The notes under the pieces were generated by a model. It was not told where the DNA came from, did not search any database, and saw only the letters and a list, made by a program, of their open reading frames with translations. A stretch of DNA of 64,000 nucleotides from Chamaelirium japonicum (lineage: Eukaryota > Streptophyta > Magnoliopsida > Liliales > Melanthiaceae): assembly GCA_947650365.1 (NCBI GenBank), contig OX393557.1, positions 54,784,972 through 54,848,971 of the forward strand. Reading direction: 5' to 3'. Positions 42,844-64,000 of the stretch are shown here, one piece after another; within the stretch, counting starts at the first letter, position 1; each line of letters begins with the position of its first letter. A program made the translations under genes and the position numbers.

Positions 42844-45800
42844 CTAGCAAAGCAAAATGGTTTTGACTCCCATCGCATCCACATGTCGCTTGAATGCCTT
42901 GATAGGTATTGCCTTGGTGAAAGGATCAGCAACATTATCTATAGATGCAATCTGTGTCACCGCTACTCACCCTTGCTTTTGAAACTGCCGAATCAAGTAG
43001 AATTTGCGCTCGATGTGCTTCCCCTTTTGGTGATGTCTTGGCTCCTTTGCTTGTGCTACCGCCCCACTATTGTCACAATAAAGCACAATAGGTAACTGGG
43101 CCTCTGGTACGTACCCCAAATCCTTAAGGAATTTCTTGAGCCATACCGCCTCTTTGGCTGCCTCGCACGCTGCAACGTACTCAGCCTCTGTGGTAGAATC
43201 CATAATGCATTTCTGCTTCACACTCTGCCAACTAACCGCTGCTCCTCCTAACATAAACACAAAACCTGATGTTGATTTTTTGGATTCCAAATCTGACATA
43301 AAGTCAGAATCTGTATATCCAATCAGCGTCAGTTCTTGTGCAGTGTAAACCAACTCATAGTCCCTTGTTCTACAAAGGTACTTGAGTATACACTTCACTG
43401 CTGTCCAGTGATCTAGACCCGGATTCGACTGAAACCGACCCATCATGCCTACTGCGAAACAGATATCTGGCCTTGTACAATGCATAGCATATATTAGACT
43501 ACCTAATGCTGAAGCATAAGGTATCTTCTGTATTTCTGCTCTCTCCTCAGGTATCTTAGGACATTGATCCTTAGACAGTTTTATGCCATGTTTAAATGGC
43601 ACAAAACCCTTCTTGGAGTTTTGCATGTCAAAGCTAGCCATAACCTTATCTATATACGCGACCTGTGACTGCGAGAGAATCCTGTTCTGGCGATCTCGTG
43701 TTACCTTGATCCCCAAAACATAACTCGCTTCACCTAGGTCTTTCATATCGAACTGTATTGACAACCAGACCTTTACCATTGACAATGTTCCAACATCATT
43801 CCCAATGAGCAGAATATCGTCTACGTAAAGTATCAAATATACCACTGTAGTCTTATCACTCCTCTTGTATACACATAGTTCATCCTCGTTTTGAGTAAAT
43901 CCATATGACTGGATTGTCTGATCAAAACGGATGTTCCAACTTCTAGATGTTTGCTTTAGTCCATAAATGGACTTCTGCAACTTGCAAATTAGATGTTCCT
44001 GACCCTCTGACTCAAAACCTGGTGGCTGTATTATATATATGTCTTCTTTCAAATTCCTATTGAGGAATGTTGTCTTGACATCCATTTGCCAGATCTCCTA
44101 GTTATAATGGTCTGCAATGGATAGTAGGATCCGATTAGACTTTATCATAGCTACCAGCGAGAAGGTTTCGTCAAAGTCGATTCCTTCTCTCTGGGTATAA
44201 CCCTTGGCAACTAATCTAGTTTTATAAGTCTCAATTGTACCATCGGATCCTTTCTTCTTCTTGTACACCCACTTATACCCAATAGGTTTAATATTGGATG
44301 ATGGTGTAACAAGAGTCCAGACAGCGTTATGGGACATTGATACAATTTCTGCCTCCATAGCCTTTTGCGAGTCAGAGCCGTCAGAAGCTCCCACTGCATC
44401 ATCGTAGCTTAGTGGGTCATCCTCCTGACCTTCTAGATCAACCAATAAGGTTTCTCTATAGTATCTGTCAGGAGCTCTGATGCTTCTCCCACTGCGATGA
44501 GGTGGTGGTTGTGTTACGGGATTAATAGGTTCTACAGTATCTGGTATATTAATGTCTGTAATGTCAGCTCCCACTATGCTTTCGGATGCGCTCTCTGATC
44601 TAGTACCTAGTAGTTCATCCAGAACTACCTCACTAGTAGGCTTGTGGTCCATAATATAATCCCGTTCTAAAAAATAGGCGTTCGTTGAAACGATCACCTT
44701 CTTTTCCTCAGGATCATAAAATAGGCCTCCTTTGGTCTCCTTAGAATACCCTACAAACAAACATACCTTGGACTTTAGTTCCATCTTATCCCTCTTATCC
44801 TTCCGCACATGTACAGGACATCCCCATATTCTGAAATGCTATAGTTTCGGTTTATTCCTTGACCACAGCTCTCTAGGGGTCTGAAGTACTGACTTGGATG
44901 GAACGTGGTTCATAATATAAACTGCTGTTTGTAGGGCATATCCCCAAAAAGTTATTGGTAAATTAGCGTAACTCATCATGCTACGAACCATGTCCAACAG
45001 GGTTCGATTCCTTCTCTCGGAAACTCCATTCTGTTGTGGGGTACCTGGAGCAGTTAACTGAGATGTTATCCCATGCTCCACCATATACCCAAGGAACTCG
45101 TCAGATAGGTACTCACCTCCTCGATCAGATCGAAGGGTTTTTATATATTTGTCTGTCTGCTTTTCTACTTCAGTCCTGAACTCTTTGAACATGTCAAAGG
45201 ATTCTGACTTCCGTTGCATTAGGTAAATATAACCATATCTTGAGTAATCATCAATAAAAGTGATGAAGTACTTATGGCCTCCTATCGCCTTGACTCTCAT
45301 GGGTCCACACACATCTGAATGGATTAACTCCAATACCTCAGTAGCTCTTACTCCTTTGCCTTTAAAGGCCCTCTTGATCATCTTGCCTTCCAAGCAGGAT
45401 TCACAGGTGGGAAGGATCTCCATAGGATCTGTTTCCAGAAGCCCGACCTTCACCATCCTATAGATCCTGTCTAAGCCAATATGCCCAAGTCGTAAGTGCC
45501 ATAATTGGGTTAAATTTTCCGAAGGTTTCTTACGCTTAGATGAATTAACATTAAATGCTGAAGTTATTATGTTATCTTTTTCAAATTTAGGACTGATAAT
45601 ATAGAGATGATTATGAACCATTCCTCTTATTATAAAAGTTCCATTCAGCTTAAACGACACACCCGAAGCATCAAAATAAACTGAATAACCTTTATTAACT
45701 AAAGAAGAAACAGAAATCAAGTTACGTCTCAAGGACGGTACATAAAAAACATCTCTAAGAGTCAAAGTCTTATTATTCGAAAAACTAAGATTAACTTCTT

Positions 45801-46809
45801 CAATAGCTTCAGCAACAGCCACGGCCTCAGTTCCCATGCTTAAGGTCACCTCTCCATCAAGCAACCTTCTACTTTTCCGAAATCCCTAAAGAGAGTTACA
45901 GGCATAGTTAGTGGATCCTGAATCCACAATCCAACTAGCAAAAGAACTATTACTCGAAAGAAATAATTCAACAACTAAGAGTTGTAGATTACCTTCACCA
46001 GCATTCTGAGGCTTCTTATAGTCCTTCTTCCAATGACCCTTTTGGCCACACCGAAAACACTTCGTGCCCGGTTTCTTTGATTCTTCAGACCCAGAGGCCC
46101 CAGCAGAGTCCTGCACAGGCACTGACTTAGGTTTCTTCTTATGTTTCTTGCCCTGAGGTTTACCAGACTTCTTAAAGGATCTGCGTTGCACGTGAAGTGC
46201 TTCGCCCTTCTGCTTGAAGCCATCCTCAGCTGCCTGGAGAGCTCCCAGAAGCTCTGCATTTGCCATAGCCAACTTGTTCAAATTAAAGTTGGTGACAAAG
46301 CCTTCAAAGGCTCCAGACAGTGACGAGAGGAAGATATCTGTCATCACCTCGCCTTCTAGCACAATGTCCATGGTAGCTAGTTCATTCTGGAACCCAAATA
46401 TTTTCATCATGTGTTCCCGAACCAGCATCCCATTAGACATCTTAGTGCCGATGAGTTTCTTGATGGTAAGGTATCGCATAACGCGATTGTGACCTTCAAA
46501 TATTTCCTTTAAATATAACATCATATCAGAAGCGTCGAGCATCACCTCGACCTGCTTCTGCAGAGTTGTTTGCAAGGATGCTATAATATAGCATTTACAT
46601 ATTTCATTAGATTCATTCCAGTCAGTGAAGGTCTTTAACTGTGCCTCTGTGGCATCGGGTCCTGGCAAATCCGACTCAGGGTCATTCAGGGCTGTCATAT
46701 GTTTACCAATCCTTAAGACCAGGTACAGGTTGCGCTTCCAGTCCTCATAGTTGGGACCGGTGAGTTTGTGGCCATTTAGGATAACGGACAGGGGGTTTAA
46801 CTTAGTCAT
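42844..46809 (-). pseudogene. Copia copy 2 gag-pol polyprotein (four premature stops, no frameshift)
   Basis: A single minus-strand frame runs from ATG at 46809 to TAG at 42844-42846. Gag has the LNG..NYEDWKRNL start and a UBN2 region. Its zinc knuckle reads C-x2-C-x4-H-x4-Tyr, so the last Cys is lost. The protease motif is DSGS. The integrase has H-x-x-x-H/C-x-x-C (about 45500-45395) and D,D,E motifs (HSDVCGP, DDYSRYGY, SERRNRT). The reverse transcriptase has YVDDILLIGND near 43825, then RNase H. Premature stops: TAG 45886-45888 (after the protease motif), TAG 44839-44841 (after integrase), TAG 44098-44100 (in RT), TGA 42967-42969 (near the RNase H end). It is well preserved otherwise, so it is younger or less decayed than copy 1. 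Confidence 0.92.
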
Positions 46810-47281
46810 CTGAAAAAAAAAATTGAATAATGAGAATGCATGAAAACTTATTTTATGGATTTTTAAAACAAGCTAATTATATCCATGTGTCAACGCTACC
46901 CTCAAGCAAAGCCATTTCAATGGATTAATTAACCATGTATGTAAGATCTCGGAATCGACGGTACCTACCCTAGGGGGCATCATACAGCGTCAATCCGCTT
47001 ACACGGGCCTTTTCCTTGACCTTATCCAAATCTGCCAACTAAGGGCTTTGATGGACCATGGTTATCTTTCGGCCAGTACTACGTGATCCCCATTGTCTGA
47101 GCAACGAATGCCTTACGTGTACTTTGGATGCTTACCCACGAGCCTAGGTAAATACGACATGGGAGTTCATGCGGCCCCCACTAGGGTGGGATAAAAAGCC
47201 CTTCTCCCCTCACCCCGTAATTACCATATCTAAAGAGAGATCACTTTGGCATGGAATAACATAACCCCCATCCTAGGGGAT
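46810..47281 (-). other. Copia copy 2 5' leader, cut by the CACTA insertion
   Basis: Non-coding DNA upstream of the gag ATG on the minus strand. No PBS complement was found, consistent with the PBS and 5' LTR lying on the far side of the CACTA element. The three bases before the CACTA terminus are GAT, the candidate 3-bp target duplication. Confidence 0.6.
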
Positions 47282-47830
47282 CACTACAAAAAAAACAGTT
47301 ATTACCGACGGACAATATCCATCGGTAATATTAAAATTCCGTCGGTAATGTTCTATAGCGACGGAAGATATTTCCGTCGCTGGCTGTCGGGAAAGAAGGC
47401 GTCGGGGAAAACAATACGACGGACTAATTATTACCGTCGGTAATAATAATTAATACCGACGGTAATATTAAAGCCGTCGGTAATATTTAATCAATTAAAA
47501 AATAATATAATATAGTATTACCGACGAAACATAATAATACGTCGGTAATATATAACCATTTTACCGACGGGTATAGTCTGTCCTGTCGGTAATACTATAT
47601 ATATTACCGACACATATATATTACCCGTCGGTAATAATATATATATTACCGACAAAATTTATATAACCATCGGTAATACTATATCTATTACCGACGCATA
47701 TATATATTACCCGTCGGTAATAATATATATATTACCGATGGATATTATATGCCGTCGGCACATTATTAATAATTTAAAAAAAATAAAAATATTATTACCG
47801 ACGGAATAATTAATTTCCGTCGGTAATAAG
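47282..47830. repeat. CACTA left terminus and subterminal repeats
   Basis: About 25 copies of TTACCGACGG or a one- or two-base variant occur in alternating orientation, often as close inverted pairs enclosing 5-20 AT-rich bases. In En/Spm elements such motifs bind the TNPA protein and aid end pairing; that role here is by analogy. Confidence 0.92.
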
Positions 47831-48163
47831 TATGTTTTTTTTTTTAATAAATTTACCTAAATAATGTTAATTAATTCCTGTGATTCAATACCACAATATA
47901 TTACCACAATTTATCAAATATTACCACAATTTATAAAATATTACCGCAAATTTTAAAATTTTACCTAAATTGATAAAAAATTACAGCAAATTATCAAATA
48001 TTACCACAGTTCCCGGCCGACAATTATAGACAAGAACAAAAAATAACCATATATTACAAAATAATATTTACACAATCCAGAACTGAGAGATGATACATGT
48101 CCTATCTCAACCACCCCCGCCCGCCACCAACGCCGGTGCTCTCATCGATCCCCTGACGCCGCC
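47831..48163 (-). other. Putative 3' UTR of the TNPA-type gene, AT-rich
   Basis: AT-rich DNA with a repeated 'tattaccacaattta' phrase (47890-48005). 48101-48161 and 48162-48222 are a 61-base tandem duplication (CCTATCTCAACCA, CGCCCGCCACCAACGC, TGCTCTCATCGATCC). The right-hand copy of the duplication forms the predicted last exon. Confidence 0.5.
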
Positions 48164-48278
48164 CTATCTCAACCATGCCCGCCCACCACCAACGCTGGTG
48201 CTCTCATCGATCCCCTGACGCCGCCCTGCTCCTGCAATTAACATGTATTTGTTAAAAAAATGGTTTATATCTATAACT

Positions 48279-51200
48279 GAGTCTAAGCGTTAAAAAATGA
48301 TAAGTTAGCGTGTTTCGGTTTTGAAATAGGTTTGGATTCGATCCGATCGTAGAATTATCGGCATCCGATAATTCGAACTTGGAATTATTCCGTATTTCGG
48401 ACTTGCGAGCGGGTTCTAATTGGATATTTGACCAATTTACGCTCCGATTCACCGATTTAGAGTCTAAGTGTTGAAAAATCATAACTTAGCGTGTTTCGGA
48501 TATGAAATAGCTAGGTTTGGATTCGATCGGATCGTCATCGGATCGGCATTCGATAATTCGAACTTGGAATTATTCCGTATTTCGGACTTGCAAGCGGGTT
48601 CTAATTGGATATTTGACCAATTTACGCTCCGATTCACCGATTTAGAGTCTAAGTGTTGGAAAATCATAAGTTAGCGTGTTTCGGATATGAAATAGGTTTG
48701 GATTCGATCCGATCGTCATCGGATCGGCATCCGATAATTCGAAGTTGGATTTATTCCGTATTTCGGACTTGCGAGCGGGTTCTAATTGGATATTTGACCA
48801 ATTTACGCTCCGATTCACCGATTTAGAGTCTAAGTGTTGGAAAATCATAAGTTAGTGTGTTTCGGATATGAAATAGGTTTGGATTCGATCCGATCATCAT
48901 CGGATCGGCATCCGATAATTCGAACTTGGAATTATTCCGTATTTCGGACTTGCGAGCGGGTTCTAATTGGATATTTGACCAATTTACGTTACGATTCACC
49001 GATTTAGAGTCTAAGTGTTGGAAAACCATAAGTTAGCGTGTTTCGGATATGAAATAGGTTTGGATTCGATCGGATCATCATCGGATCAGCATCCGATAAT
49101 TCGAACTTGGAATTATTCCGTATTTTGGACTTGCGAGCGGGTTCTAATTTGATATTTGACCAATTTACGCTCCGATTCACCGATTTAGAATCTAAGTGTT
49201 GGAAAATCATAAGTTAGCGTGTTTCGGATATGAAATAGGTTTGGATTCGATCGGATCATCATCGGATCGGCATCCGATAATTCGAACTTGGAATTATTCT
49301 GTATTTCGGACTTGCGAGCGGGTTCTAATTTGATATTTGACCGATTTACGCTCCGATTCACCGATTTAGAGTCTAAGTGTTGGAAAATCATAAGTTAGCG
49401 TGTTTCGGATATGAAATAGGTTTGGATTCGATCCGATCGTCATCGGATCGGCATCCGATAATTCGAACTTGGAATTATTCCGTATTCCGGACTTGCGAGC
49501 GGGTTCTAATTTGATATTTGACCAATTTACGCTCCGATTCATCGATTTAGAGTCTAAGTGTTGGAAAATCATAAGTTAGCGTGTTTCGGATATGAAATAG
49601 GTTTGGATTCGATCCGATCGTCATCGGATCGGCATCCGGTAATTCGAAGTTGGAATTATTCCGTATTTCGGACTTGCGAGCGGGTTCTAATTGGATATTT
49701 GACCAATTTACGTTCCGATTCACCGATTTAGAGTCTAAGTGTTGCAAAATCATAAGTTAGCGTGTTTCGGATATGAAATAGGTTTGGATTCGATCGGATC
49801 ATCATCGGATCGGCATCCGATAATTCGAACTTGGAATTATTCCGTATTTCGGACTTGCGAGCGGGTTCTAATTGGATATTTGACCAATTTACGCTCCGAT
49901 TCACCGATTTAGAGTCTAAGTGTTGGAAAATCATAAGTTAGCGTGTTTCGGATATGAAATAGGTTTGGATTCGATCGGATCATCATCGGATCGGCATCCG
50001 ATAATTCGAACTTGGAATTATTCCGTATTTCGGACTTGCGAGCGGGTTCTAATTTGATATTTGACCAATTTACGCTCCGATTCACCGATTTAGAGTCTAA
50101 GTGTTGGAAAATCATAAGTTAGCGTGTTTCGGATATGAAATAGGTTTGGATTCGATCCGATCATCATCGGATCGGCATCCGATAATTCGAAGTTGGAATT
50201 TTTCCGTATTTCGGACTTGCGAGCGGGTTCTAATTGGATATTTGACCAATTTACGCTCCGATTCACCGATTTAGAGTCTAAGTGTTGGAAAATCATAAGT
50301 TAGCGTGTTTCGGATATGAAATAGGTTTGGATTCGATCCGATCGTCATCGGATCGGCATCCGATAATTCGAACTTGGAATTATTCCGTATTTCGGACTTG
50401 CGAGCGGGTTCTAATTGGATATTTGACCAATTTACGTTTCGATTCACCGATTTAGAGTCTAAGTGTTGGAAAATCATAAGTTAGCGTGTTTCGGATATGA
50501 AATAGGTTTGGATTCGATCGGATCATCATCGGATCGGCATCCGATAATTTGAACTTGGAATTATTCCGTATTTCGGACTTGCGAGCGGGTTCTAATTTGA
50601 TATTTGACCAATTTACGCTCCGATTCACCGATTTAGAGTCTAAGTGTTGGAAAATCATAAGTTAGCGTGTTTCGGATATGAAATAGGTTTGGATTCGATC
50701 GGATCATCATCGGATCGGCATCCGATAATTCGAACTTGGAATTATTCCGTATTTCGGACTTGTGAGCGGGTTCTAATTTGATATTTGACCAATTTACGCT
50801 CCGATTCACCGATTTAGAGTCTAAGTGTTGGAAAATCATAAGTTAGCGTGTTTCGGATATGAAATATGTTTGGATTCGATCCGATCGTCATTGGATCGGC
50901 ATCCGATAATTCGAACTTGGAATTATTCCGTATTTCGGACTTGTGAGCGGGTTCTAATTGGATATTTGACCAATTTACGCTCTGATTCACCGATTTAGAG
51001 TCTAAGTGTTGGAAAATCATAAGTTAGCGTGTTTCGGATATGAAATAGGTTTGGATTCGATCGGATCATCATGGGATCGGCATCCGATAATTCTAACTTG
51101 GAATTATTCCGTATTTCGGACTTGCGAGCGGGTTCTAATTTGATATTTGACCAATTTACGCTCCAATTCACCGATTTAGAGTCTAAGTGTTGGAAAATCA

Positions 51201-54200
51201 TAAGTTAGCGTGTTTCGGATATAAAATAGGTTTGGATTCGATCCGATCGTCATCGGATCGGCATCCGGTAATTTGAAGTTGGAATTATTCCGTATTTCGG
51301 ACTTGCGAGCGGGTTCTAATTGGATATTTGACCAATTTACGCTCCGATTCACCGATTTAGAGTCTAAGTGTTGGAAAATCATAAGTTATCGTGCTTCGGA
51401 TATGAAATAGGTTTGGATTCGATTGGATCATCATCGGATCGGCATCCGATAATTCGAACTTGGAATTATTCCTTATTTCGGACTTGCGAGCGGGTTCTAA
51501 TTGGATATTTGACCAATTTACGCTCCGATTCACCGATTTAGAGTCTAAGTGTTGGAAAATCATAACTTAGCGTGTTTCGGATATGAAATAGGTTTGGATT
51601 CGATCCGATCGTCATCGGATCCGCATCCGATATTTCAAAGTTGGAATTATTTCGTATTTCGGACTTGCGAGCGGGTTCTAATTGGATATTTGACCAATTT
51701 ACGATTCGATTCACCGATTTAGAGTCTAAGTGTTGGAAAATGATAAGTTAGCGTGTTTCGGATATGAAATAGCTAGGTTTGGATTCGATCGGATCGTCAT
51801 CGGATCGGCATCCGATAATTCGAACTTGGAATTATTTCGTATTTCGGACTTGCGAGCGGGTTCTAATTGGATATTTGACCAATTTACGCTCCGATTCACC
51901 GATTTAGAGTCTAAGTGTTGGAAAATCATAACTTAGCGTGTTTCGGATATGAAATAGGTTTGGATTCGATCCGATCGTCATCGGATCGGCATCCGATAAT
52001 TCGAAGTTGGAATTATTCCGTACTTCGGACTTGCGAGCGGGTTCTAATTGGATATTTGACCAATTTACGCTCCGATTCACCGATTTAGAGTCTAAGTGTT
52101 GGAAAATCATAAGTTAGCGTGTTTCGGATATGAAATAGGTTTGGATTCGATCCGATCGTCATCGGATCGGCATCCGATAATTCAAACTTGGAATTATTTC
52201 ATATTTCGGACTTGCGAGCGGGTTCTAATTGGATATTTGACCAATTTACGCTCCGCTTCACCGATTTAGAGTCTAAGTGTTGGAAAATCATAACTTAGCG
52301 TGTTTCGGATATGAAATAGGTATGGATTCGATCGGTTCGTCATCGGATCGGCATCCGATAATTCGAACTTGGAATTATTCCGTATTTCGGACTTGCGAGC
52401 GGGTTCTAATTGGATATTTGACCAATTTACGCTCCGCTTCACCAATTTAGAGTCTAAGTGTTGGAAAATCATAAGTTAGCGTGTTTCGGATATGAAATAG
52501 GTTTGGATTCGATCCGATCGTCATCGGATCGGCATCCGATAATTCGAACTTGGAATTATTTCGTATTTCGGACTTGCGAGCGGGTTCTAATTGGATATTT
52601 GACCAATTTACGCTCCGCTTCACCGATTTAGAGTCTAAGTGTTGGAAAATCATAACTTAGCGTGTTTCGGATATGAAATAGGTTTGGATTCGATCGGATC
52701 GTCATCGGATCGGCATCCGATAATTCGAACTTAGAATTATTCCGTATTTCGGACTTGCGAGCAGGTTCTAATTGGATATTTGACCAATTTACGCTCCGCT
52801 TCACCAATTTAGAGTCTAAGTGTTGGAAAATCATAACTTAGCGTGTTTCGGATATGAAATAGGTTTGGATTCGATCCGATCGTCATCGGATCAGCATCCG
52901 ATAATTTGAACTTGGAATTATTCCGTATTTCGGACTTGCGAGCGGGTTCTAATTGGATATTTGACCAATTTACGCTCCGCTTCACCAATTTAGAGTCTAA
53001 GTGTTGGAAAATCATAACTTAGCGTGTTTCGGATATGAAATAGGTTTGGATCGATCGGATCGTCATCGGATCGGCATCCGATAATTCGAACTTGGAATTA
53101 TTCCGTATTTCGGACTTGCGAGTGAGTTCTAATTGGATATTTGACCAATTTACGCTTCGATTCACCGATTTAGAGTCTAAGTGTTGGAAAATCATAAGTT
53201 AGCGTGTTTCGGATATGAAATAGGTTTGGATTCGAGCCGATCGTCATCGGATCGGCATCCAATAATTCAAACTTGGAATTATTCCATATTTCGGACTTGC
53301 GAGCGGGTTCTAATTGGATATTTGACCAATTTACGCTCCGATTCACCGATTTAGAGTCTAAGTGTTGGAAAATCATAACTTAGCGTGTTTCGGATATGAA
53401 ATAGGTTTGGATTCGATCGGATCGTCAACGGATCGACATCCGATAATTCCAACTTGGAATTATTTCGTATTTCGGACTTGTGAGCGGTTTCTAATTGGAT
53501 ATTTGACCAATTTACGCTCCGATTCACCGATTTAGAGTCTAAGTGTTGGAAAATCATAAGTTTGCGTGTTTCGGATATGAAATAGGTTTGGATTCGATCG
53601 GATCGTCATCGGATCGGCATTCGATAATTCGAAGTTGGAATTATTCCGTATTTCGGACTTGCGAGCGGGTTCTAATTGGATATTTGACTAATTTACGATT
53701 CGATTCACCGATTTAGAGTCTAAGTGTTGGAAAATCATAAGTTAGCGTGTTTCGGATATGAAATAGCTAGGTTTGGATTCGATCCGATCGTCATCGGATC
53801 GGCATCCGATAATTCGAACTTGAAATTATTCCGTATTTTGGACTTGCGAGCAAATTCTAATTGGATATTTGACCAATTTACGCTCCGATTCACCGATTTA
53901 GAGTCTAAGTGTTGGAAAATCATAAGTTAGCGTGTTTCGGATATGAAATAGGTTTGGATCGATCGGATCATCATCGGATCGGCATCCGATAATTCGAACT
54001 TGGATTTATTCCGTATTTCGGACTTGCGAGCGAGTTCTAATTGGATATTTGACCAATTTACGCTCCGATTCACCGATTTAGAGTCTAAGTGTTGGAAAAT
54101 CATAAGTTAGCGTGTTTCGGATATGAAATAGGTTTGGATTTGATCCGATCGTCATCGGATCGGCATCCGATAATTCAAACTTAGAATTATTCCGTATTTC

Positions 54201-54649
54201 GGACTTGCGAGCGGGTTCTAATTCGATATTTGACCAATTTACGCTCCGCTTCACCGATTTAGAGTCTAAGTGTTGGAAAATCATAACTTACCGTGTTTCG
54301 GATATGAAATAGGTTTGGATTCGATCCGATCGTCATCGGATCGGCATCCGATAATTCGAACTTGGAATTATTCCGTATTTCGGACTTGCAAGCGAGTTCT
54401 AATTGGATATTTGAAGAATTTACGCTCCGATTCACCGATTTAGAATCTAAGTGTTGGAAAATCATAACTTAGCGTGTTTCGGATATGAAATAGGTTTGGA
54501 TTCGATCCGATCCGTATCGGATCAGCATCCGATAATTCGAACTTGGAATTATTCCGTATTTCGGACTTGCGAGCGGGTTCTAATTGGATATTTGAAGAAT
54601 TTACGCTTCGATTCACCGATTTAGAATCTAAGTGTTGGAAAATCATAAG
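48279..54649. repeat. 181-bp satellite array A, ~35 tandem units
   Basis: Units start at GAGTCTAAGTGTTGG and repeat every 181 bases (48279, 48460, 48641 and so on to ~54624). Three units carry a GCTA insertion (near 48510, 51772 and 53766, ~185 bp) and two share a small deletion in the GGATTCGATC phrase (near 53050 and 53957). Each unit has CpG-rich palindromic phrases (TCGATCCGATCG, CATCGGATCGGCATCCGAT). Left-half units often read ATCATCATCGG. Right-half units often read CGCTTCACC, so local homogenisation is visible. A phrase reading ACGTT in place of ACGCT recurs every four units (near 48985, 49710 and 50434; 724-base spacing). A 62-68-codon open frame in each unit on the minus strand is a property of the consensus, not evidence of a protein. 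Confidence 0.97.
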
Positions 54650-54722
54650 TGTGATAATATGATCTAAACTCAAATTAGTATGATTCATATTTTTTACTAA
54701 TATTATAAAGATTAGTAAGTAC
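54650..54722. other. Spacer between array A and the TNPA-type exon 6
   Basis: AT-rich intron start containing the predicted donor; no repeat units. Confidence 0.5.
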
Positions 54723-56424
54723 CTGATCATGAGCCACCGCTAGACCGGCTTATGAAGTCATTAAGCCGACGCTCTAGTTCCCTGCGAGCTTCTCTTTCCT
54801 CATCGAGGGCCTTTTTCTCCGCCTCAACCCTCTGCTCGAGGGCCTGCCTCTGCTATCGCTCTGCCTTAATCCTCTGCTCGAGGGCCTGCCTCTGCTCTCG
54901 CTCCGCGTCTAGCACAGACTGCAGCTGAGTGATAGCACCGGTCTGGGTGTCCCATGCCCTCGAGCGCATACCCTCTCGTCCAAAGTAGGAGGAGGGCGTG
55001 ACTCCAAGGCTCGTACAGAGGACACGGCCGTGCGTGGCAGGTCTCAGCACAGTATCCATCGCTGAGTCGACAGATACTGAGCTGGTGGAGGAGCCGGCCT
55101 CGCCCGACGGGGTCACCAGAAGTCGCATCCTCTCATATATAAAAACAACCAATGATATTCAATGATATTTTATGGCATATGTATAAGAATATATTAACTG
55201 TAATTTAATTACTTACCACTTGCGAGGCAACCCTGTCGTCCAGAAATGCCCCATCGATACGCCGCCTCCTAGAGGCCTCAAAAAGGTCAATCCTATTAGG
55301 CTCGTGGCCCAAGGACTGTGTCTGTTGGACATATAAAATAAATAGATGAGTTAATATAACATGTATAGAGTTTTAAATAATAACAATGTTTGTATCATTT
55401 ACCAGCTGCTGGGCAAGCTGGGGCATGGAGGTCCTCCCCTTCACTGGAGCAGGTGTCGTCGATGCACTTCTATTCTGCTTGCCTATAGCAGATTTATTCT
55501 GTGCAATCGATTAAATTTTGAAACATCAATACAAATTTTTAGTATAACATTAAAACAAGTACGAATCAACAAAATTATAATTATACCTGAAAGCTAGGGG
55601 TGGCCCAGTGAGCGACCAAAAACTGTAGAATATGTAGCGGTGGCGCGTCTCTCGTCCCGGCCGCAGCCTGTACCTCCTCAGCCGGCTGGCCGACCAAGTA
55701 ACCGTAGAGCTTGTAGAACTCGTGACGGTAATCCCTGTACCGCTCACCCATCGTCTTCCACAAGTCCTCCCGATGGGTGTCGGTTTCCATGTTCTCCCAT
55801 TTAAATTTCTCCTGTAAAATCAATTTAGAAACAAGTCATTTTATCAAATCAAATTATCAAGAAGTACGATATTATTCTAAAATGCTTTAATGAAACTAAC
55901 GTACCAAAAACTGCTGATACATCCTCTCCTTATAGGATGCATTAATGTTCTTCCACCCCCTTAACCCCACAATCGGGGCATTCCTCTCCTCCCGTACTAT
56001 CATGCCGACCCACGTGGCGGCGTCAGAAGCGTGCTCGCCCACAAAGGTCCCGCCGCTCCACTGTAGGGACAGCGGCTCACGTAAGGCCGACAAGCGCCGG
56101 GCCGTCGTCACGCCCCGGTCGCCTACGTGCCTGGTCGACCCTGCAAATAAAATATACATCAGTACTGAAGAAGTATTTACAACATGTATAAAACTTTAGA
56201 TCTAAACATTACCTGTGGGCGTAGACGCTGTAGCCGAGTGCTGAGCACTGCTCGAAGCTCCGGAGGCTGCGACCACAGCAGGAGCTGGTGTGGAGAGAGG
56301 AACAGCACTACCAGATCCGGACGGCTCAGCCTCGGACCCTGGGGTGGCAGCCGGAGCGCTCCGAGCTACCCCACCCCTGCCTCTGCCTCTACGAACATAT
56401 GACCGTGATGCCATCTGAAACAAT

Positions 56425-56566
56425 TTAATTTACATATGAAACAGTAAGATTTACATATGAAACAATATGAAACAGTTTGATTTACATATGAAACAGTATG
56501 ATTTACATATGAAACAATATGAAACAATATGAACCCGCTCGCAATATGAAACAATATGAAACAGTT
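56425..56566. repeat. ~21-bp minisatellite, left flank of array B
   Basis: Units of the form TTTACATATGAAACAGTATGA recur about six times. A stray 13-base piece of the 181-bp unit (GAACCCGCTCGCA, 56531-56543) is embedded near the end. Confidence 0.8.
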
Positions 56567-58060
56567 AGACTCTAAATCGGTTAATCAGATCGTAAATTGG
56601 TCAAATATCCAATTAGAACCCGCTCGCAAGTCCGAAATACAGAATATAATTCCAAGTTCGAATTATCGGATGCCGATCCGATGACGATCGGATCGAATCC
56701 AAACCTATTTCATATCCGAAACACGCTAAGTTATGATTATCCAACACTTAGACTCTAAATCGGTGAACCGGAGCGTAAATTGGTCAAATATCCAATTAGA
56801 ACCCGCTCGCAAGTCCGAAATACAGAATAATTCCAACTTCGAATTATCGGATGCCGATCCGATGACGATCGGATCGAATCCAAACCTATTTCATATCCGA
56901 AACACGCTAAGTTATGATTTTCCAACACTTAGACTCTAAATCGGTGAATCGGAGCGTAAATTGGTCAAATATCCAATTAGAATTTGCTCGCAAGTCCAAA
57001 ATACGGAATAATTCCAAGTTCGAATTATCGGATGCCGATCCGATGACGATCGGATCGAATCCAAACCTAGCTATTTCATATCCGAAATACGCTAACTTAT
57101 GATTTTCCAACACTTAGATTCTAAATCGGTGAATCGAATCGTAAATTGGTCAAATATCCAATTAGAACCCGCTCGCAAGTCCGAAATACGGAATAATTCC
57201 AACTTCGAATTATCGGATGCGGATCCGATGACGATCGGATCGAATCCAAACCTATTTTATATCCGAAACACGCTAAGTTATGATTTTCCAACACTTAGAC
57301 TCTAAATCGGTGAATCGGAGCGTAAATTGGTCAAATATCCAATTAGAACCCGCTCGCAAGTCCGAAATACGGAATAATTCTAAGTTCGAATTATCGGATG
57401 CCGATCCGATGACGATCCGATCGAATCCAAACCTAGCTATTTCATATCCGAAACACGCTAACTTATGATTTTCCAACACTTAGACTCTAAATCGGTGAAT
57501 CGAATCGTAAATTGGTCAAATATCCAATTAGAACCCGCTCGCAAGTCCGAAATACGGAATAATTCCAACTTTGAATTATCGGATGCGGATCCGATGACGA
57601 TCGGATCGAATCCAAACCTATTTCATATCCGAAACACGCTAACTTATGATTTTCCAACACTTAGACTCTAAATCGGTGAATCGGAGCGTAAATTGGTCAA
57701 ATATCCAATTAGAACCCGCTCGCAAGTCCGAAATACGGAATAATTCCAAGTTCGAATTATCGGATGCCGATCCGATGACGATCCGATCGAATCCAAACCT
57801 ATTTCATATCCGAAACACGCTAAGTTATGATTTTCCAACACTTAGACTCTAAATCGGTGAATCGGAGCGTAAATTTGTCAAATATCCAATTAGAACCCGC
57901 TCGCAAGTCCGAAATACGGAATAATTCTAAGTTCGAATTATCGGATGCCGATCCGATGACGATCGGATCGAATCCAAACCTATTTCATATCCGAAACACG
58001 CTAACTTATGATTTTCCAACTCTTAGACTCTAAATCGGTGAATCGATCGGATCGTAAATC
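56567..58060. repeat. 181-bp satellite array B, 8 units, opposite orientation to array A
   Basis: Units begin at GACTCTAAATCGGTGAATC (56568, 56751, 56931, 57116, 57299, 57482, 57664, 57845, then a partial at 58026) and are the reverse complement of array A units. Two units (near 57068 and 57434) carry the same GCTA insertion as three array A units, so the arrays share subfamilies. The array lies between the TNPD stop codon and the TNPA-type ATG. Confidence 0.97.
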
Positions 58061-58204
58061 GGTGAAACGGTATGATTTACATATGAATCGGTGAAACAGT
58101 ATGATTTACATATGAAATAATATTATATACATATGAAACAATATGATTTAATTATATATGAAACAATTTGATTTAAATATGAAACAATTTGATTTACATA
58201 CGGT
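58061..58204. repeat. ~21-bp minisatellite, right flank of array B
   Basis: The same TTTACATATGAAACA-type units as at 56425-56566, with AT-rich variants. The junction has hybrid units (AATCGGTGAAACAGTATGA), mixing the 181-bp and 21-bp repeats. Confidence 0.75.
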
Positions 58205-61200
58205 CTAGTCATTTTCTGTCTCATCTCTGTCACTCTCATCGCTTCCCTCTTCTATTATTTGATCTGCATTCGCTGTCCAGTTTATATTGTCGACATCTTC
58301 ATTTTCGTCGTGCACTGCGTCGACAATGATTATCTCATCATTCTGGTATGCATCCAAATCATCATCGACGACCCCCGCATCCTTGTCTCCCATGTCATAA
58401 AAATCTCTGGGTGGTGACCTAACTACAATTTGCCAACCTGAAGAGGTATTATCCGGTGCATAAAATATCTGTTGCGCTTGAGAGGTAAGAATGAATGGAT
58501 CTTCATATTGGGTATTCAATCTCTTGGCAGTGTTGATGCTGATAAAACCGTATTTGTCGACATTATAACCAGTCCCGCGATTATTAACATCATACCAATC
58601 GCATTTGAATAATACGATCCGATTTTGGCCAAGAAATTTAATCTCGAGAATCTCGTTGAGGACGCCGTAGAAGTCGATATTTTCTAATTCTTCTTGCTCA
58701 CCGTTGACGACAACCCCACTATTTTGGGTTCTTCGTGATTTTTCACTATCTTTCGTCCGAAATCTATAACCGTTCACAATATAACCATCGTACGATATTG
58801 CGTCTTGCAAAGGACTACAAGATAAGCGCCAGAGATCCTCATTCATCAGCGGATCGTGGTTGTCGTGCAGCTCCTGTGCCTATAATAACCACACGACATT
58901 CATGATATGAACACATAATTATTGTTCGGTAATGGATGTCAATGAAATTCAGTAATGATATGAATACTTACGTGTTTCTCGAACCACGATAGGAATTCAC
59001 GATCATGAATTTGGGGAGCATTTCGAGTACCCCGATTATTAATGATGGCTTTATGCTTCCTATTTTACCGGTTATAAATTAGATTATAATTAGCACATAT
59101 ACTTAATGAATGGACTGAAAGAATGAGTAAATGATCGTAAAATGCTTACTCAATGAATGGCCACACTTCATCACATTGGCGCAACACATATATATGTGCC
59201 TGTTGAATCTCATCTACAGACAATCGACGGGTTTTGCCTCCTCCTACAGGTCTACCCATTTCGGCAAATATAGACAGACCCCCATCGAAGTCTATTGGAC
59301 CACCGTCATAGTTCCGCTCAAGTTGATTGAATCGCGTGTCTATACCATGTAGGTATCTTGAGCAGAATGTTAGACATTCTTCTGCTAGGTATCCTTCAGC
59401 AATTGATCCCTCCAGACGACTTTTATTACGAACATATGATTTCAATGTTCGCAAGTACCTAATTTGAGAAAAAAATATTTGGATGAATATATCAAGAACG
59501 ATCAAATACATTGTGCGAATGAGACGAGACGATTACCTCTCGATAAAATACATCCACCGGTAATGAACTGGGCCGCCGAGTTTGGCCTCATTTGCCAAGT
59601 GAACGGTCAAATGCACCATGACATCAAAGAAGGAAGGTGGAAATATCATCTCTAACTTGCACAATGTGAGCACAATATCCCTTTCCATCTGTTCAAGTTG
59701 GTCCACTCTAAGTACCTTCGAGCACAACTGTCTGAAAAAAGTGCTGAGCTCAATTAACGGACCGGACACCTCTTCGGTTAAATTCCCACGTATAGCAAGA
59801 GATAACAATCGCTGCATAAGAACATGACAATCGTGGCTCTTTAATCCAGACAACTTCCGGCCGTTCTCTTGCACGCATCGTGCGATATTCGAAGAATAAC
59901 CGTCTGGCGTTTTCACAGACCGTAGGAATGCACATAAGGCTGCCTTTTGCTGTGAGCTCATGGTATAGCATGCAACTGGCAACACATACTTATCCCCAAT
60001 CTCTTGGGGATGAAGTGATTTTCGGATGCCCAACTCCTTAAGATCGAGACGAGATTTAAGATTATCCTTCGTCTTACCGTCGAGATTCAGCAGTGTTCCT
60101 ATAATGTTGTCACACACATTTTTCTCGATATGCATGACATCCAAGTTATGCCGCAAGAGTAGGCTGCTCCAGTACGGTAGTTTAAAGAAAATACTCTTCT
60201 TCTTCCAGTTATGCTCACGCGTAGAATCTTCATGCGTTCTCTTCTTTTTACCTTTTCTAAGTGCCACGGCATCAAGCTGATCCAATTCGCACAAGACTGC
60301 TACCCCCGAAAGCTGCTCCGGGGTCTTTGCAAGTTTCTTCTTGCCGTTGAAAGCTCTTTTGTTCTGCCTCCACTTATGGCCGTCAACAAGGAATCTTCGA
60401 TGGCCCATATAACAGAACTTACCTCCGTTCTTCAACCGTAATGAATCTGTCTCCTTATTGCATGTAGGGCACACCAATTTTCCTTTAGTACTCCACCCGG
60501 ATAAGTTGGCATATGCAGGAAAATCATTGATGGTCCATAGAAGTGCCGCATGCATCCGAAAATTCTGGCGCAACGAGGCATCATACGTATCGGCCCCAAC
60601 TTCCCATAACTCGTTCAACTCCTCAATCAACGGCTGTAAGTAAACGTCAATATCATTACCAGGCGACCTGGGTCCGGGAATGAGCAAGGAGAGCATTGTG
60701 TATGGCTTTTTTAAGCACATCCAGGGAGGCAAATTGTATGGAACTAGGACAACTGGCCAAATGCTGTACGACACACTCATATTCCCAAAGGGATTGAAGC
60801 CATCGCTAGCAAGCCCTAACCTGACGTTGCGAACTTCACATGCGAATTCAGGATATGTATGATCAAAATCTTTCCACGTCAGAGAGTCGGCCGGATGTCT
60901 CATAATCCCGTCATCTGTACGTTCTCGTGCATGCCACCTTATGTGCTCAGCAGTCTTCGATGACATAAACAACCTCTGAAGCTTGTCCCTGAGCGGGAAG
61001 TATAGCAGAACCTTTGCAGATACATTTTTCTTCCTTCGACTGGTACTAGACTCGGCATCCGTCTCTTTATATCTCGTTGCTCCGCATATGTGGCATGACC
61101 GCGCATGTTCGTACTCTTTCCGGTACAACATACAATCGTTCACGCATGCATCAATTTTCTCATAACCCAGACCGAGATCTTTAATTATCTTCTTCGCCTC

Positions 61201-61806
61201 GTAGAATGATTTCGGTACTGTCTCACCCATAGGAAAAGCCTCTTTCAGCAACTCTACCAACATATTAAATGACTTATTACTCCAACCATTGAGGCACTTC
61301 AAATGAAGAAGCTTTACAGTGAAAGAGAGTTTGGAAAACTTCTCACACCCCGGGTATAGAGGTTGTTCGGCATCTTTAAGCAATCTGTAGAACTTGTCCG
61401 CTTCGATATTGGGCTGATCACCTGACGGTGTTTCCGTGCCTATTCCACCTTACAAATCATGTATCATACCCTGCATGTCATCGTCATCGTCTGTATTAAT
61501 ATTATCATCAGCGATCACTGTGTTTGAAGTTTTACCGTGAGCTGCCATGGGGACTGCATCTATCTCCTCACCGTGCGAGAACCAACGGGTATAGGTAATG
61601 TCAATGCCACGCATTACCAGATCAACCTCACATTCCTCTCGAACCTTCCTAATCACCCTTCCGCAGTCTATACAGGGACACACAATTTTTCCATCAAGCG
61701 GTGCAAGACACTCAAATGCAAAATCCAGAAATTTCCTGACTCCTTCTCTGTACTCTTGGCTCATGCGATTCGAATTACGCATCCAACTCTTATCGATCGA
61801 AGACAT
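58205..61806 (-). CDS. tnpD: TNPD-type CACTA transposase, 4 exons, one premature stop
   Basis: It would cut and join the CACTA ends. Exons on the minus strand: 61806-59537, 59458-59150, 59059-58972 and 58879-58205, with introns of 78, 90 and 92 bp bounded by GT-AG. They join in phase to 1,114 codons including the stop. Domain order: Transpos_assoc (about residues 5-90, with C-P-C-x2-C), Transposase_21 (about 190-600), DUF4218 (about 690-860) and DUF4216 (about 960-1030), then a very acidic tail. Candidate catalytic residues are Asp335 (ASDGFNP), Asp428 (INDFPAY) and Glu561 (MHIEKN), all kept; a CxxC zinc pair (CPTC) follows the second Asp. The one lesion is TAA at 61450-61452 (codon 119), between Transpos_assoc and Transposase_21. 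A protein starting downstream of it would still contain the catalytic core. Start: first ATG after the acceptor TATGTCAG (ends 61832). Confidence 0.9.
61450..61452 (-). other. Premature TAA in the TNPD frame
   Basis: The only stop in the 1,113-codon spliced frame; the same frame continues uninterrupted on both sides. Confidence 0.85.
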
Positions 61807-61831
61807 CTTCGTCTATCTGGCTATACAACAC

Positions 61832-62404
61832 CTGACATATAATTTCAAACAATGTTATAAGACTCCGCACAATTTTGGTTTCGGTTCCCGAGTATGGAAC
61901 ACCGAACCAAACCTTCTACAGACCATCCACATCCCTAATGGATGGGTGTATTATGATGAGTAGACTAGTCACATAGTAAACCTAGGGTTGGTGGCCAGCA
62001 TTTGAACTGCTGATAGTTCGAATGCTAGGCATAGCACCAAAGTTATGCGATAGTAAGTCAACAAGTCAGGGAGCCTCATCAAGTAAACACTTGGGGTCTG
62101 ACGGTTCTCTCTGTCACTCGAGTAGATTTATGGCTTTAGCATACCTCATATCACACCGAACCGACAAAAACCGACCATTTCGGTTTCGGTTTCGGTTTCG
62201 GTTTTGATTTTTCGTAAACCGAAAAAAATATAACCGACAAAACCGACACCGAAACCGACCGATAAAACCGACGCTCACCCTAGTCTAAAAACTACATTTT
62301 GCCCCCCATTCCCCCATTCAATTCAGTTTTGATAGGATATAAAAAATCAATGTTTTAATTAAAACACGAAAACTCAACTCGACTCGAAACCTTAATGAGT
62401 CGAG
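61832..62404 (-). other. Probable 5' intron/leader of TNPD, no gene
   Basis: The acceptor TATGTCAG ends at 61832 on the minus strand, 26 bases before the ATG. 62158-62283 is rich in CGGTTT/AAACCG phrases and ends in CACCCTAG, resembling one end of a hAT-type MITE, without a clear partner. Confidence 0.4.
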
Positions 62405-63214
62405 TAGATACGACAACTCGGCTAAAACCCGACAAAACTCGAGTCGAATCGAAACTCAGCCGAGTCGGATCGAAACTCGAGTTTTGGACCGAGTCGAATC
62501 GAAACTCAGCCGAGTCGAGTCGACTCGGCCGAGTTTCGAGTGGACTCGGAGGGTGGATCAGCGAACGAAGAACACCGAATATCACATTCGAAGAACATAC
62601 CATCACCCAATACATTAAATTCAACTCCAAACATAATCTATTCATGGTAGCAATAACATAATTATACAAACTGACACGACAACTCGGCTAAAACCCGACA
62701 AAACTCGAGTCGAATCGAAACTCAATCAGCCGAGTCGGATCGAAACTCGAGTTTTGGACCGAGTCGAATCGAAACTCAGCCGAGTCGAGTCGACTCGGCC
62801 GAGTTTCGAGTGGACTCGGAGGGTGGATCAGCGAACGAAGAACACCGAATATCACATTCGAAGAACATACCATTACCCAATACATTAAATTCAACTCCAA
62901 ACATAATCTATTCATGGTAGCAATAACATAATTATACAAACTGACACGACAACTCGGCTAAAACCCGACAAAACTCGAGTCGAATCGAAACTCAATCAGC
63001 CGAGTCGGATCGAAACTCGAGTTTTGGACCGAGTCGAATCGAAACTCAGCCGAGTCGAGTCAACTCGGCCGAGTTTCGAGTGGACTCGGAGGGTGGATCA
63101 GCGAACGAAGAACACCGAATATCACATTCGAAGAACATACCATCACCCAATACATTAAATTCAACTCCAAACATAATCTATTCATGGTACCAATAACATA
63201 ATTATACAAACTGC
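62405..63214. repeat. Tandem repeat, 3 units of ~270 bp
   Basis: Units start at ACGACAACTCGGCTAAAACC (about 62409, 62675, 62945). Units 2 and 3 are 270 bases and unit 1 is ~266 (missing AATC). Identity is very high, with only a few substitutions, so the expansion is recent. Each unit has a CTCGAGT/ACTCGAG and GACTCGGCCGAGT palindromic core and an AT-rich half. Confidence 0.95.
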
Positions 63215-63500
63215 AACGACTCCGATAGAATCCGGCTCACCAACATTAAAATAAAAAAAAAATTATAGAAAACCCTAAAGGGCAAAAACCATTGTCAAAC
63301 AAGCAAACCCTACAATACATTTTAAGAGAGCATTTACCAATAAATATCGATCGGGTGAAAAGAAAATCCATCCACATATGCAAAGTAGCAAACCCTACAT
63401 TATATGTCTGATCATCATCTAAGCAAGCACTGCATATCCCATTACCAACCATTATAGAGAGAGAGAGAGAGCTAGAGAGAGAGAAATGGGTCGTCTCCCA
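63215..63500. other. Probable TNPD 5' intron, no gene
   Basis: AT-rich DNA with a GA stretch at 63457-63483. On the minus strand GACGAG|GTATGG at ~63503 is a plausible 5' UTR splice donor. Confidence 0.4.
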
Positions 63501-63591
63501 TACCTCGTCAGCGGTCAAGACCAGAAAGGAAGAGGCACCCAGAAGCTTTTCGATTTCTCCCTCGACCCAGCAGGAACCCCTCCTCTTTCTC

Positions 63592-63722
63592 TTGATTCGA
63601 GTAATACCGGGGTGGGGGACAGATTTAGAGAGAGAGCGAGAGAGAGGGGTGGGGCAGGATCGAGTAATACCGGGGTGGGGGACGGATTTAGAGAGAGCGA
63701 GAGAGAGGGGCGGGGCGTGCAG
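63592..63722. repeat. ~63-bp tandem duplication in the TNPD 5' leader
   Basis: The phrase GAGTAATACCGGGGTGGGGG, then ACAGATTTAGAGAGAG and GGGG, occurs at 63598 and 63661. It lies in the predicted untranslated first exon on the minus strand. Confidence 0.8.
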
Positions 63723-63765
63723 GAAAGATCAAAACAGATCGAACAGAGAAGGGGATCGCGCTGAG

Positions 63766-63784
63766 TTTAAATAGGTTAGGGTTT
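63766..63784 (-). promoter_or_regulatory. Predicted TNPD promoter: TATA-like box and telo-box
   Basis: On the minus strand AAACCCTAACC (telo-box core AAACCCTAA, plus 63776-63784) is followed by TATTTAAA (plus 63766-63773). Both lie between the subterminal repeats and the GA/CT-rich leader. This is where a CACTA promoter is expected. Telo-boxes are known cis elements in plant promoters active in dividing cells; function here is inferred. Confidence 0.5.
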
Positions 63785-64000
63785 TTACCGACGGAATGTT
63801 TAAGTCCGTCGGTATAAATAATATTTATCCCGACGGACACATAATAGCCGTCGGTACAAATAATCTTTATACCGACGAAAACATCATATCCGTCGGTAAA
63901 CCTCTACGACGAAACTCAGGGTTCCATTTTTTCCAGAGGCTCGGTTTTTACCCTGAGTTTCGTCGGGACAATTTTCCCGACGGAAATTTTATTACCGTCG
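63785..64000. repeat. CACTA right subterminal repeats (terminus not reached)
   Basis: TTACCGACGG-type motifs in both orientations, e.g. 63786, 63808, 63829, 63850, 63872, 63891, 63977 and 63993. The closing TIR ending in TAGTG is not in the window. Confidence 0.9.

Follow-up and report, generated by a model that had tools for sequence, protein, structure and literature searches.

A 181-bp repeat arrayed in opposite orientations around the TNPA-type gene of a high-copy CACTA family in Chamaelirium japonicum: probable passengers of transposition

The window analysed here, a 64,000-nt stretch of the Chamaelirium japonicum genome (GCA_947650365.1, OX393557.1, positions 54,784,972 to 54,848,971, forward strand), contains a CACTA (En/Spm) element that runs past its right end (Table 1). 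The ends of this element (CACTACAA) are CACTA-type terminal inverted repeats, which start with CACTA and read CACTACAAAAAAAACAG on the left and TTGTAGTG on the right; self-matches in both orientations reveal subterminal repeats inside both termini. With the 3-bp target-site duplication, the PF02992 transposase and the TNPA-type gene, all the hallmarks of the CACTA superfamily are present. A search of positions 47200 to 64000 against Rfam gave no matches. An initial annotation of this DNA had described two inverted arrays of a 181-bp repeat around the TNPA-type gene, inside one CACTA element. Our results confirm the arrangement (by Tandem Repeats Finder, an anchor search and the unit consensus) as well as the location within a single element (by the ends, the GAT duplication and the Pfam domains of TNPD).

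Table 1. Features of the CACTA element, in window positions
Feature	Position	Strand	Remarks
CACTA (En/Spm) element	47282..64000 + 567 bases past window end (to C9:54849538)		17,286 bp (17.29 kb)
Target-site duplication GAT, left copy	47279..47281		right copy 568-570 bases past window end
Left terminal and subterminal region	47282..48278		direct and inverted repeats, TACCGACGG type
Array 1	48279..54650	+	~35 tandem 181-bp units, downstream of TNPA stop codon
TNPA-type gene	54723..56414	-	PF03004; six exons, hand model; position as in the initial annotation
TNPA hand-model exons	56414-56213, 56140-55905, 55811-55587, 55498-55403, 55321-55217, 55131-54720	-
Short AT-rich tandem repeats	56416..56559		ATATGAAACA type; separate TNPA from array 2
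Array 2	~56560..58060	-	~8 units, inverted, 181-bp consensus common with array 1; some spacings 185
TNPD transposase gene	58205..61812	-	PF13963, PF02992, PF13960, PF13952
270-bp repeat	62410..63220		three tandem copies, right part of element

The hand-spliced TNPA protein matches Pfam PF03004 (Transposase_24) at 51.3 bits (cut-off, 28.7), a match that was absent when four single-exon frames of the gene were searched alone. The PF02992 (tnp2-type transposase) match in TNPD reaches 333 bits. The window copies of both genes are interrupted, TNPA by an in-frame stop after residue 380 and TNPD by one at 61450-61452. In some copies, the 759-aa transposase frame is uninterrupted, and these keep a place beside TNPA copies of the family that carries the 181-bp arrays, an observation neither predicted nor forbidden by the reading of the arrays as passengers that is developed below.

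Tandem Repeats Finder reported array 1 at 48279-54650 (period, 181; 35.1 copies; 95% matches; score, 11,430) and array 2, in reverse orientation, at 56560-58045 (period, 181/366; 8.2 copies). The anchor search found 36 forward sites and 9 reverse sites, the latter comprising 8 in array 2 and one stray 12.7 kb off. A single 181-bp consensus holds for both arrays, as derived from pieces of nine copies of the element (232 from array 1 and 63, including at least one stray, from array 2). Both arrays lie outside the coding parts of TNPA and TNPD, and their CpG observed/expected ratio is 2.0-2.1, versus 0.64 in positions 1-47000 of the window.

The nine copies compared are the window copy and eight others fetched by best unit matches, a choice by which array-less copies would be missed. 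The order and orientation of parts are identical in all nine: the left terminus is followed by array 1 in every copy, inverted array 2 is present in eight, TNPD in eight and TNPA in seven (partial in one). The 270-bp repeat is matched only in parts by the other copies that extend to that region. All five copies with both ends have matching 3-bp duplications (GAT, TGA, GAA, GAT and CCA). Across the 1.52-Gb genome, a 48-mer from the array 1-TNPA junction has 1,088 matches with up to three mismatches, against none for a reversed control, and this recurrence points to one origin. The 4,253 matches of the array 2-TNPA junction 48-mer were left unused because only about 5 of its 48 letters lie outside the unit, which makes the count unspecific. 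TNPA was counted 1,062 times and the left terminus only 598 times, probably due to faster divergence of the terminus. The unit core was counted 40,369 times, equivalent to at least 40,369 units and some 7 Mb or more of DNA. Per TNPA match, there are 38.0 unit matches genome-wide versus 38.7 among the nine copies, so that elements can explain roughly the whole number of units. The unit and junction counts support the earlier proposal that the transposon spreads the repeat through the genome. On C1, the 61 exact TNPA matches extend across all ten tenths (3 to 12 per tenth), and clustering at a centromere, telomere or knob was not found there, as judged through this gene. The stretches read of two further CACTA families in this genome (9.5 and 9.0 kb) contain no comparable array. 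A related element of 1.93 kb, flanked by the duplication ACA, carries no arrays and has transposed.

Array loci were also taken by position, as a sample rather than a full census, from 0 to 7.54 Mb of C1 (nine loci, 20 flank pieces). At least one array edge adjoins CACTA sequence at all nine; 18 of the 20 flank pieces reach CACTA sequence, 2 remain inside the array and none shows an array adjoining unrelated DNA. At these loci, arrays elsewhere in the genome are indeed bordered by CACTA sequence, and the suggestion that the transposon seeds a free-standing satellite is left unsupported.

In array 1, units follow a collinear order from copy to copy (for 35 of 36 pairs, collinearity exceeded that of all 30 shuffles), indicating that the arrays travelled with the element. 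For array 2, this held in only 7 of 21 pairs, which makes its history less simple. Length ranges from 13 to 39 units in array 1 and from 0 to 15 in array 2, which is missing in one of the nine copies and down to 2 units in another; median gene difference among copies is 1.25% (TNPD core, seven copies) or 1.9% (TNPA, six copies). Exchange of units between the arrays is clear in only one copy, at C1:60.48 Mb, where 10 of 11 array 2 units are closest to array 1 units from other copies, a likeness upheld in 200 of 200 size-matched subsamples. Array 2 of a second copy, C50, leans the same way (195 of 200), and five of the seven copies tested have kept an array 2 lineage of their own (0 of 200 subsamples array 1-like). 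Flipping of TNPA through recombination between the inverted arrays was considered and rejected: of 16 places on C1 where an exact left terminus lies no more than 15 kb from an exact TNPA, 14 show the usual orientation only, and the other 2 belong to one rearranged cluster.

Our results suggest that the arrays are probably a satellite internal to a single CACTA family of high copy number, born once, spread by transposition and carried along as passengers. The 181-bp unit would have become tandem, by some form of duplication, in a noncoding stretch of an ancestral element, beside TNPA; the array may then have come to lie in inverted copy on the other side of the gene through some form of inversion; and transposition would have taken the module as a whole to about a thousand sites. 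From lineage to lineage, the arrays change in length, provide breakpoints for deletions and occasionally hand units to one another. We found no sign of array function, and the arrays are most likely passengers rather than a working part of the element.

A different origin, proposed for a 171-bp repeat of quinoa, would be a free genomic satellite captured by a CACTA element and then spread. The length of the 181-bp unit is nucleosome-like, as in many plant centromeric or knob satellites, and the quinoa authors, in the available portion of their report, preferred capture on the ground that Chenopodium sosnowskyi has a related satellite outside CACTA elements (PMC8978399). Capture is nevertheless unlikely here: no array outside CACTA sequence turned up among the loci sampled by position, elements explain roughly the number of units counted, and either two captures in opposite orientations around one gene or one capture plus an inversion would be needed. 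Tandem arrays are often misassembled, and collapsed or mis-joined repeats might in principle have produced the arrangement. This is scarcely credible given an identical array 1-TNPA junction at about 1,000 places, target duplications that match in all five complete copies and unit orders that are copy-specific yet collinear. The arrangement is no accident of assembly because it is found again at separate insertion sites flanked by different duplications; hence, an artefact is in substance refuted, the exact numbers of units per array excepted.

The initial annotation had also raised the possibility that the satellite serves the transposon, for which indirect tests (of the palindrome, of motifs and of likeness to the subterminal repeats, together with the mobility of the array-less 1.93-kb element) gave no support. 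One such role, by analogy with VANC, would be a regulatory platform: the unit would be bound by an element-encoded protein, TNPA or one related to it, and the element would thereby stay active. VANDAL elements offer a precedent in VANC-bound motifs within tandem repeats, according to the accessible parts of two reports (PMC5735166, PMC10398659), and the arrays, like those repeats, occupy noncoding DNA next to an accessory gene and are of variable length; their high CpG ratio also fits. However, a platform seems improbable, as enrichment of short motifs in the unit falls short of significance (7 to 16% of shuffles reach the level of the best 5- to 7-mers), the unit has no likeness to the subterminal motif above that of shuffles and conservation at its strongest palindrome is among the lowest in the unit (rank 6 of 159). 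This palindrome, CGATCCGAT-N4-ATCGGATCG, was rejected as a binding site or cruciform for that low conservation and for showing no paired changes, though a piece of 67 bases has a better fold than shuffled sequences (z = -3.1). The arrays also look methylated: in a frequency-limited count, their low-frequency mutations have an excess of C/G transitions, as in the genes, consistent with partly methylation-driven mutation, but weaker because transversions are also common there. Unmethylated arrays, suggested by a count of singletons with almost no C/G transitions, were dropped after the frequency-limited count, since recurrent changes cannot appear as singletons when each column holds 284 units. 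Finally, the related 1.93-kb element has transposed with no array at all. Another conceivable role, predicted from the inverted order, is that read-through would form a long hairpin, with the double-stranded RNA cut into family-silencing small RNAs or with splicing steered around the TNPA exons. Complementarity is extensive (1,268 of 1,481 array 2 21-mers are perfectly complementary to array 1 sequence, with a longest perfect arm of 170 bp or more), and both arrays lie downstream of TNPD on the TNPD strand. En/Spm has one long transcript, and a transcript of this kind would therefore hold both arrays. We regard this as very improbable, as array 2 is lost or nearly so in two of the nine copies; moreover, the inverted order derives from a single origin and hence its conservation is no sign of selection. 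It is similarly doubtful that the paired arrays constitute a control module, whether a hairpin of ~1.5 kb formed by the transcript of the element itself or a TNPA platform, that would set the strength of family silencing; if they did, copies with arrays of different lengths would differ in how strongly they control themselves.

With the arrays read as passengers, an abundant satellite-like repeat is, as far as sampled, an internal part of one transposon family; short-read repeat surveys would likely classify this repeat as satellite DNA of dispersed type. Because about a thousand copies have a common junction and a readable unit order, array growth, array shrinkage and exchange between inverted arrays are directly measurable, and the family would allow us to watch whether such arrays ever escape as satellites.

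As in En/Spm of maize, the C. japonicum element combines TNPA-type and TNPD-type genes with CACTA ends, subterminal repeats and 3-bp duplications; to our knowledge, En/Spm has no long satellite arrays. The VANDALs of Arabidopsis belong to a different group of transposons, which is Mutator-like. They carry VANC-bound motifs in tandem repeats of introns and upstream regions, with quick expansion and contraction (PMC5735166, PMC10398659, in the parts available). The likeness lies in noncoding tandem repeats of a DNA transposon that sit beside an accessory gene and change quickly in length; the VANDAL motifs are short, with VANC binding and anti-silencing demonstrated, whereas the units here are 181 bp long. 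The Chenopodium satellite CficCl-61-40, described in the accessible text as arising from ~40 bp of a CACTA Jozin transposase gene (PMC7320549), is likewise tied to a CACTA transposon; unlike that transposase-derived satellite, the 181-bp unit is noncoding and stays inside the element. Our literature search found no published inverted array pair around TNPA; the earlier claim of no precedent was nevertheless too strong. In the available portion of the report, a Jozin-type CACTA element of Chenopodium quinoa (16,523 bp) contains a 171-bp satellite in 32.5 copies (5.5 kb), also present in three further elements of that genome (PMC8978399). The two elements are similar in length and their units are close to nucleosome length. 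The quinoa element has one array, near its 3' end and read as captured (PMC8978399, same portion), whereas the C. japonicum family, with no free satellite in our sample, has two opposite arrays flanking TNPA in about a thousand copies.

Within the window (C9 54,784,972-54,848,971, from a 1.52-Gb assembly of 3,253 contigs), the two inverted arrays of 181-bp units belong to a CACTA element of 17,286 bp, whose features are listed in the table together with the larger losses seen in other copies. The array coordinates and unit counts of the initial annotation were right. CpG observed/expected is ~2.2 in the left terminus (47282-48278) and 2.0-2.1 in the arrays, compared with 0.64 in window positions 1-47000. 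The neighbouring Copia element is split by stops into several frames, and its leader or LTR is the likely CACTA insertion point. In the right part of the CACTA element, a 270-bp repeat occurs three times in tandem (62410-63220), with abundant CGAGTCGA motifs; this stretch had only partial matches in the other fetched copies.

Features of the CACTA element and its surroundings, and larger losses in other copies
Feature	Position	Orientation	Details
Copia-type retrotransposon	43501-46872	minus	copia gag, integrase and RVT_2 domains; left of CACTA insertion
CACTA left end	starts 47282		CACTACAAAAAAAACAG; GAT directly before
Array 1	48279-54650		35.1 copies of 181 bp, 95% matches
Array 2	56560-58045	reverse	8.2 copies
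TNPD	58205-61812	minus	PF13963, PF02992 (333 bits), PF13960, PF13952
CACTA right end	567 bases past window end		CTTGTAGTG; GAT directly after
Larger loss	C1:81.24 Mb		TNPA and array 2 gone
Larger loss	C1:60.48 Mb		TNPD gone
Larger loss	C2:9.0 Mb		TNPA gone
Larger loss	C7:36.8 Mb		part of TNPA gone

The gene between the arrays, TNPA, matched PF03004 (Transposase_24) at 51.3 bits against a cut-off of 28.7 when six exons were spliced by hand; the match was absent when four single-exon frames were searched unspliced. The window copy has in-frame stops in TNPA, after residue 380, and in the transposase gene TNPD, at 61450-61452. The last TNPA exon contains a 42-bp tandem repeat (54817-54906) encoding charged peptide repeats of the EQRQALEQR type, perhaps a coiled coil.

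Eight further copies, from stretches fetched around unit matches, make with the window a non-random sample of nine. The order and orientation of the parts were the same throughout: the left terminus was followed by array 1 in all nine, and an inverted array 2 was present in eight, TNPA in seven (one partial) and TNPD in eight (some truncated where the fetched sequence stops). Unit numbers ranged from 13 to 39 in array 1 and from 0 to 15 in array 2. Five copies were recovered with both termini, and each is bordered by a matching 3-bp duplication (GAT, TGA, GAA, GAT and CCA). In each of the four larger losses, a breakpoint falls within or at an array.

A 48-base core of the unit had 40,369 genome-wide matches with up to 2 mismatches (reversed control, 0), and recovered 271 of 299 anchor places in the nine copies, at least two of these places being strays. 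A TNPA 48-mer had 1,062 matches (up to 3 mismatches), a left-terminus 48-mer 598 and a 48-mer spanning the array 1-TNPA junction 1,088, the sharing of this junction showing a single origin. There are thus 38.0 unit matches per TNPA match genome-wide (40,369/1,062) versus 38.7 in the nine copies (271 for the seven with TNPA), a rough balance, as mismatch limits differ and the copies are not random, that leaves little room for large free arrays. In a position-based sample of nine array loci (C1, 0-7.54 Mb, from exact core matches listed by position), BLAST placed CACTA parts (left terminus, TNPA, TNPD or right part) beside the array in 17 of 20 flank pieces. An eighteenth piece, L038, carries immediately before its array 24 bases that match the last 24 of the window's left terminus exactly, and the remaining two, L045 and L048, are array throughout. 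No array abutted unrelated DNA in these 20, where some farther-out stretches (e.g., the first 195 bases of L034) are unassigned. The suggested link to centromeric or knob satellites is unsupported, the distribution on C1 being dispersed.

We compared 295 unit pieces from the nine copies, leaving out 11 poorly aligned ones (≤90% of the consensus) from mutation counts only. Arrays 1 and 2 have the same consensus. From copy to copy, the units of array 1 follow a collinear order (35 of 36 pairs above all 30 shuffles); for array 2, 7 of 21 pairs exceeded all shuffles, every one inside two groups of copies. The origin of array 2 was tested in seven copies with enough units, using 200 size-matched subsamples. 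Array 2 at C1:60.48 Mb is built from units resembling those of array 1 (10 of 11; 200/200 subsamples), and that of the C50 copy leans the same way (195/200). The C9, C7, C8, C1:84.9 Mb and C12 copies kept an array 2 lineage of their own (0/200 each), although the units of C12 are split, five being closer to array 1 and four to array 2. Thus, the inverted arrays exchange units at times. In a rearranged cluster (C1:89254000-89272500; L049-L050), parts of more than one element are combined: the segment array 2-TNPA-array 1 is present as an inverted duplication of 5.5 kb (97.8% identity), and an array of 47 units is fused to the left end of another element. On C1, 16 places match the left terminus exactly and have an exact TNPA match within 15 kb; 14 of them have TNPA in the usual orientation only, and the other two lie within this cluster (C1:89.25-89.27 Mb).

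The family has been mobile recently. Divergence between copies is low, with medians of 1.25% in the TNPD core (seven copies) and 1.9% in TNPA (six copies). Of 2,179 PF02992 candidates, 150 were scored; many of these, on C1 and other contigs, tie at 344.9 bits, and the majority, as far as tallied, have an uninterrupted frame of 759 aa, pointing to a recent burst. At least 18 scored rows on C1 combine this score and length; compared by eye, 14 of these 18 have an exact TNPA match of the array-carrying family no more than 7 kb away and 4 do not. For at least three of the 14 (C1:4.60, 20.80 and 120.22 Mb), the matches listed include an array or the array 1-TNPA junction as well; some of these copies, at least, carry arrays. 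Some copies in the position-based C1 sample are older, with left termini 84.6-89% like the window's and array pieces 91.6-96.5% like the query unit, indicating that the arrangement predates the latest burst.

No test run gave a sign of an array function: the unit's palindrome has no special conservation, motif enrichment in the unit was not significant, the subterminal motif is absent from it, and Rfam gave no match. Transition rates in the units (changes at frequency ≤3%) were 0.0113 at CpG, 0.0060 at other C/G and 0.0012 at A/T; those in TNPD (all changes) were 0.0165, 0.0127 and 0.0007. C/G transversions are also common in the units (0.0065 at CpG versus 0.0004 in TNPD), so that the methylation-like imprint left by the transition excess is present there but weaker than in TNPD. 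L028, a non-autonomous 1.93-kb relative (~C2:8993846-8995772) ~5.8 kb away from a full element, lacks arrays and genes but ends in CACTA termini and is bordered by an ACA duplication; arrays are thus dispensable in cis for this relative at least, although its termini share just ~80% likeness with the window's. A possible role is favoured by the finding that 1,268 of 1,481 21-mers of array 2 have a perfect complement in array 1, so that transcription through both arrays would give an RNA with a long hairpin.

The arrays look specific to this family, judged against two further CACTA families in the genome, whose proteins are 62-66% like TNPD in the C-terminal part of the core: 9.5 and 9.0 kb of sequence beyond their transposase domains, on the downstream side, contained no tandem unit of ≥150 bp. 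No title or abstract found in the literature on CACTA repeats dealt with paired inverted arrays around TNPA, most subscription journals being outside coverage. The lack of precedent claimed initially is, however, partly wrong: as described in PMC8978399, a 16,523-bp CACTA element of Chenopodium quinoa carries, close to its 3' end, 32.5 monomers of a 171-bp satellite spanning 5,550 bp, and the satellite, which the authors read as captured, also occurs in three further elements. Another satellite is reported (PMC7320549) to derive from a CACTA transposase, and in the accessible portion of a survey of transposon-born satellites (PMC9659126) the CACTA case is Chenopodium alone. Beside these systems, the present structure, a CACTA family whose internal satellite is paired, is real and tidy, of an ordinary kind but with new details.
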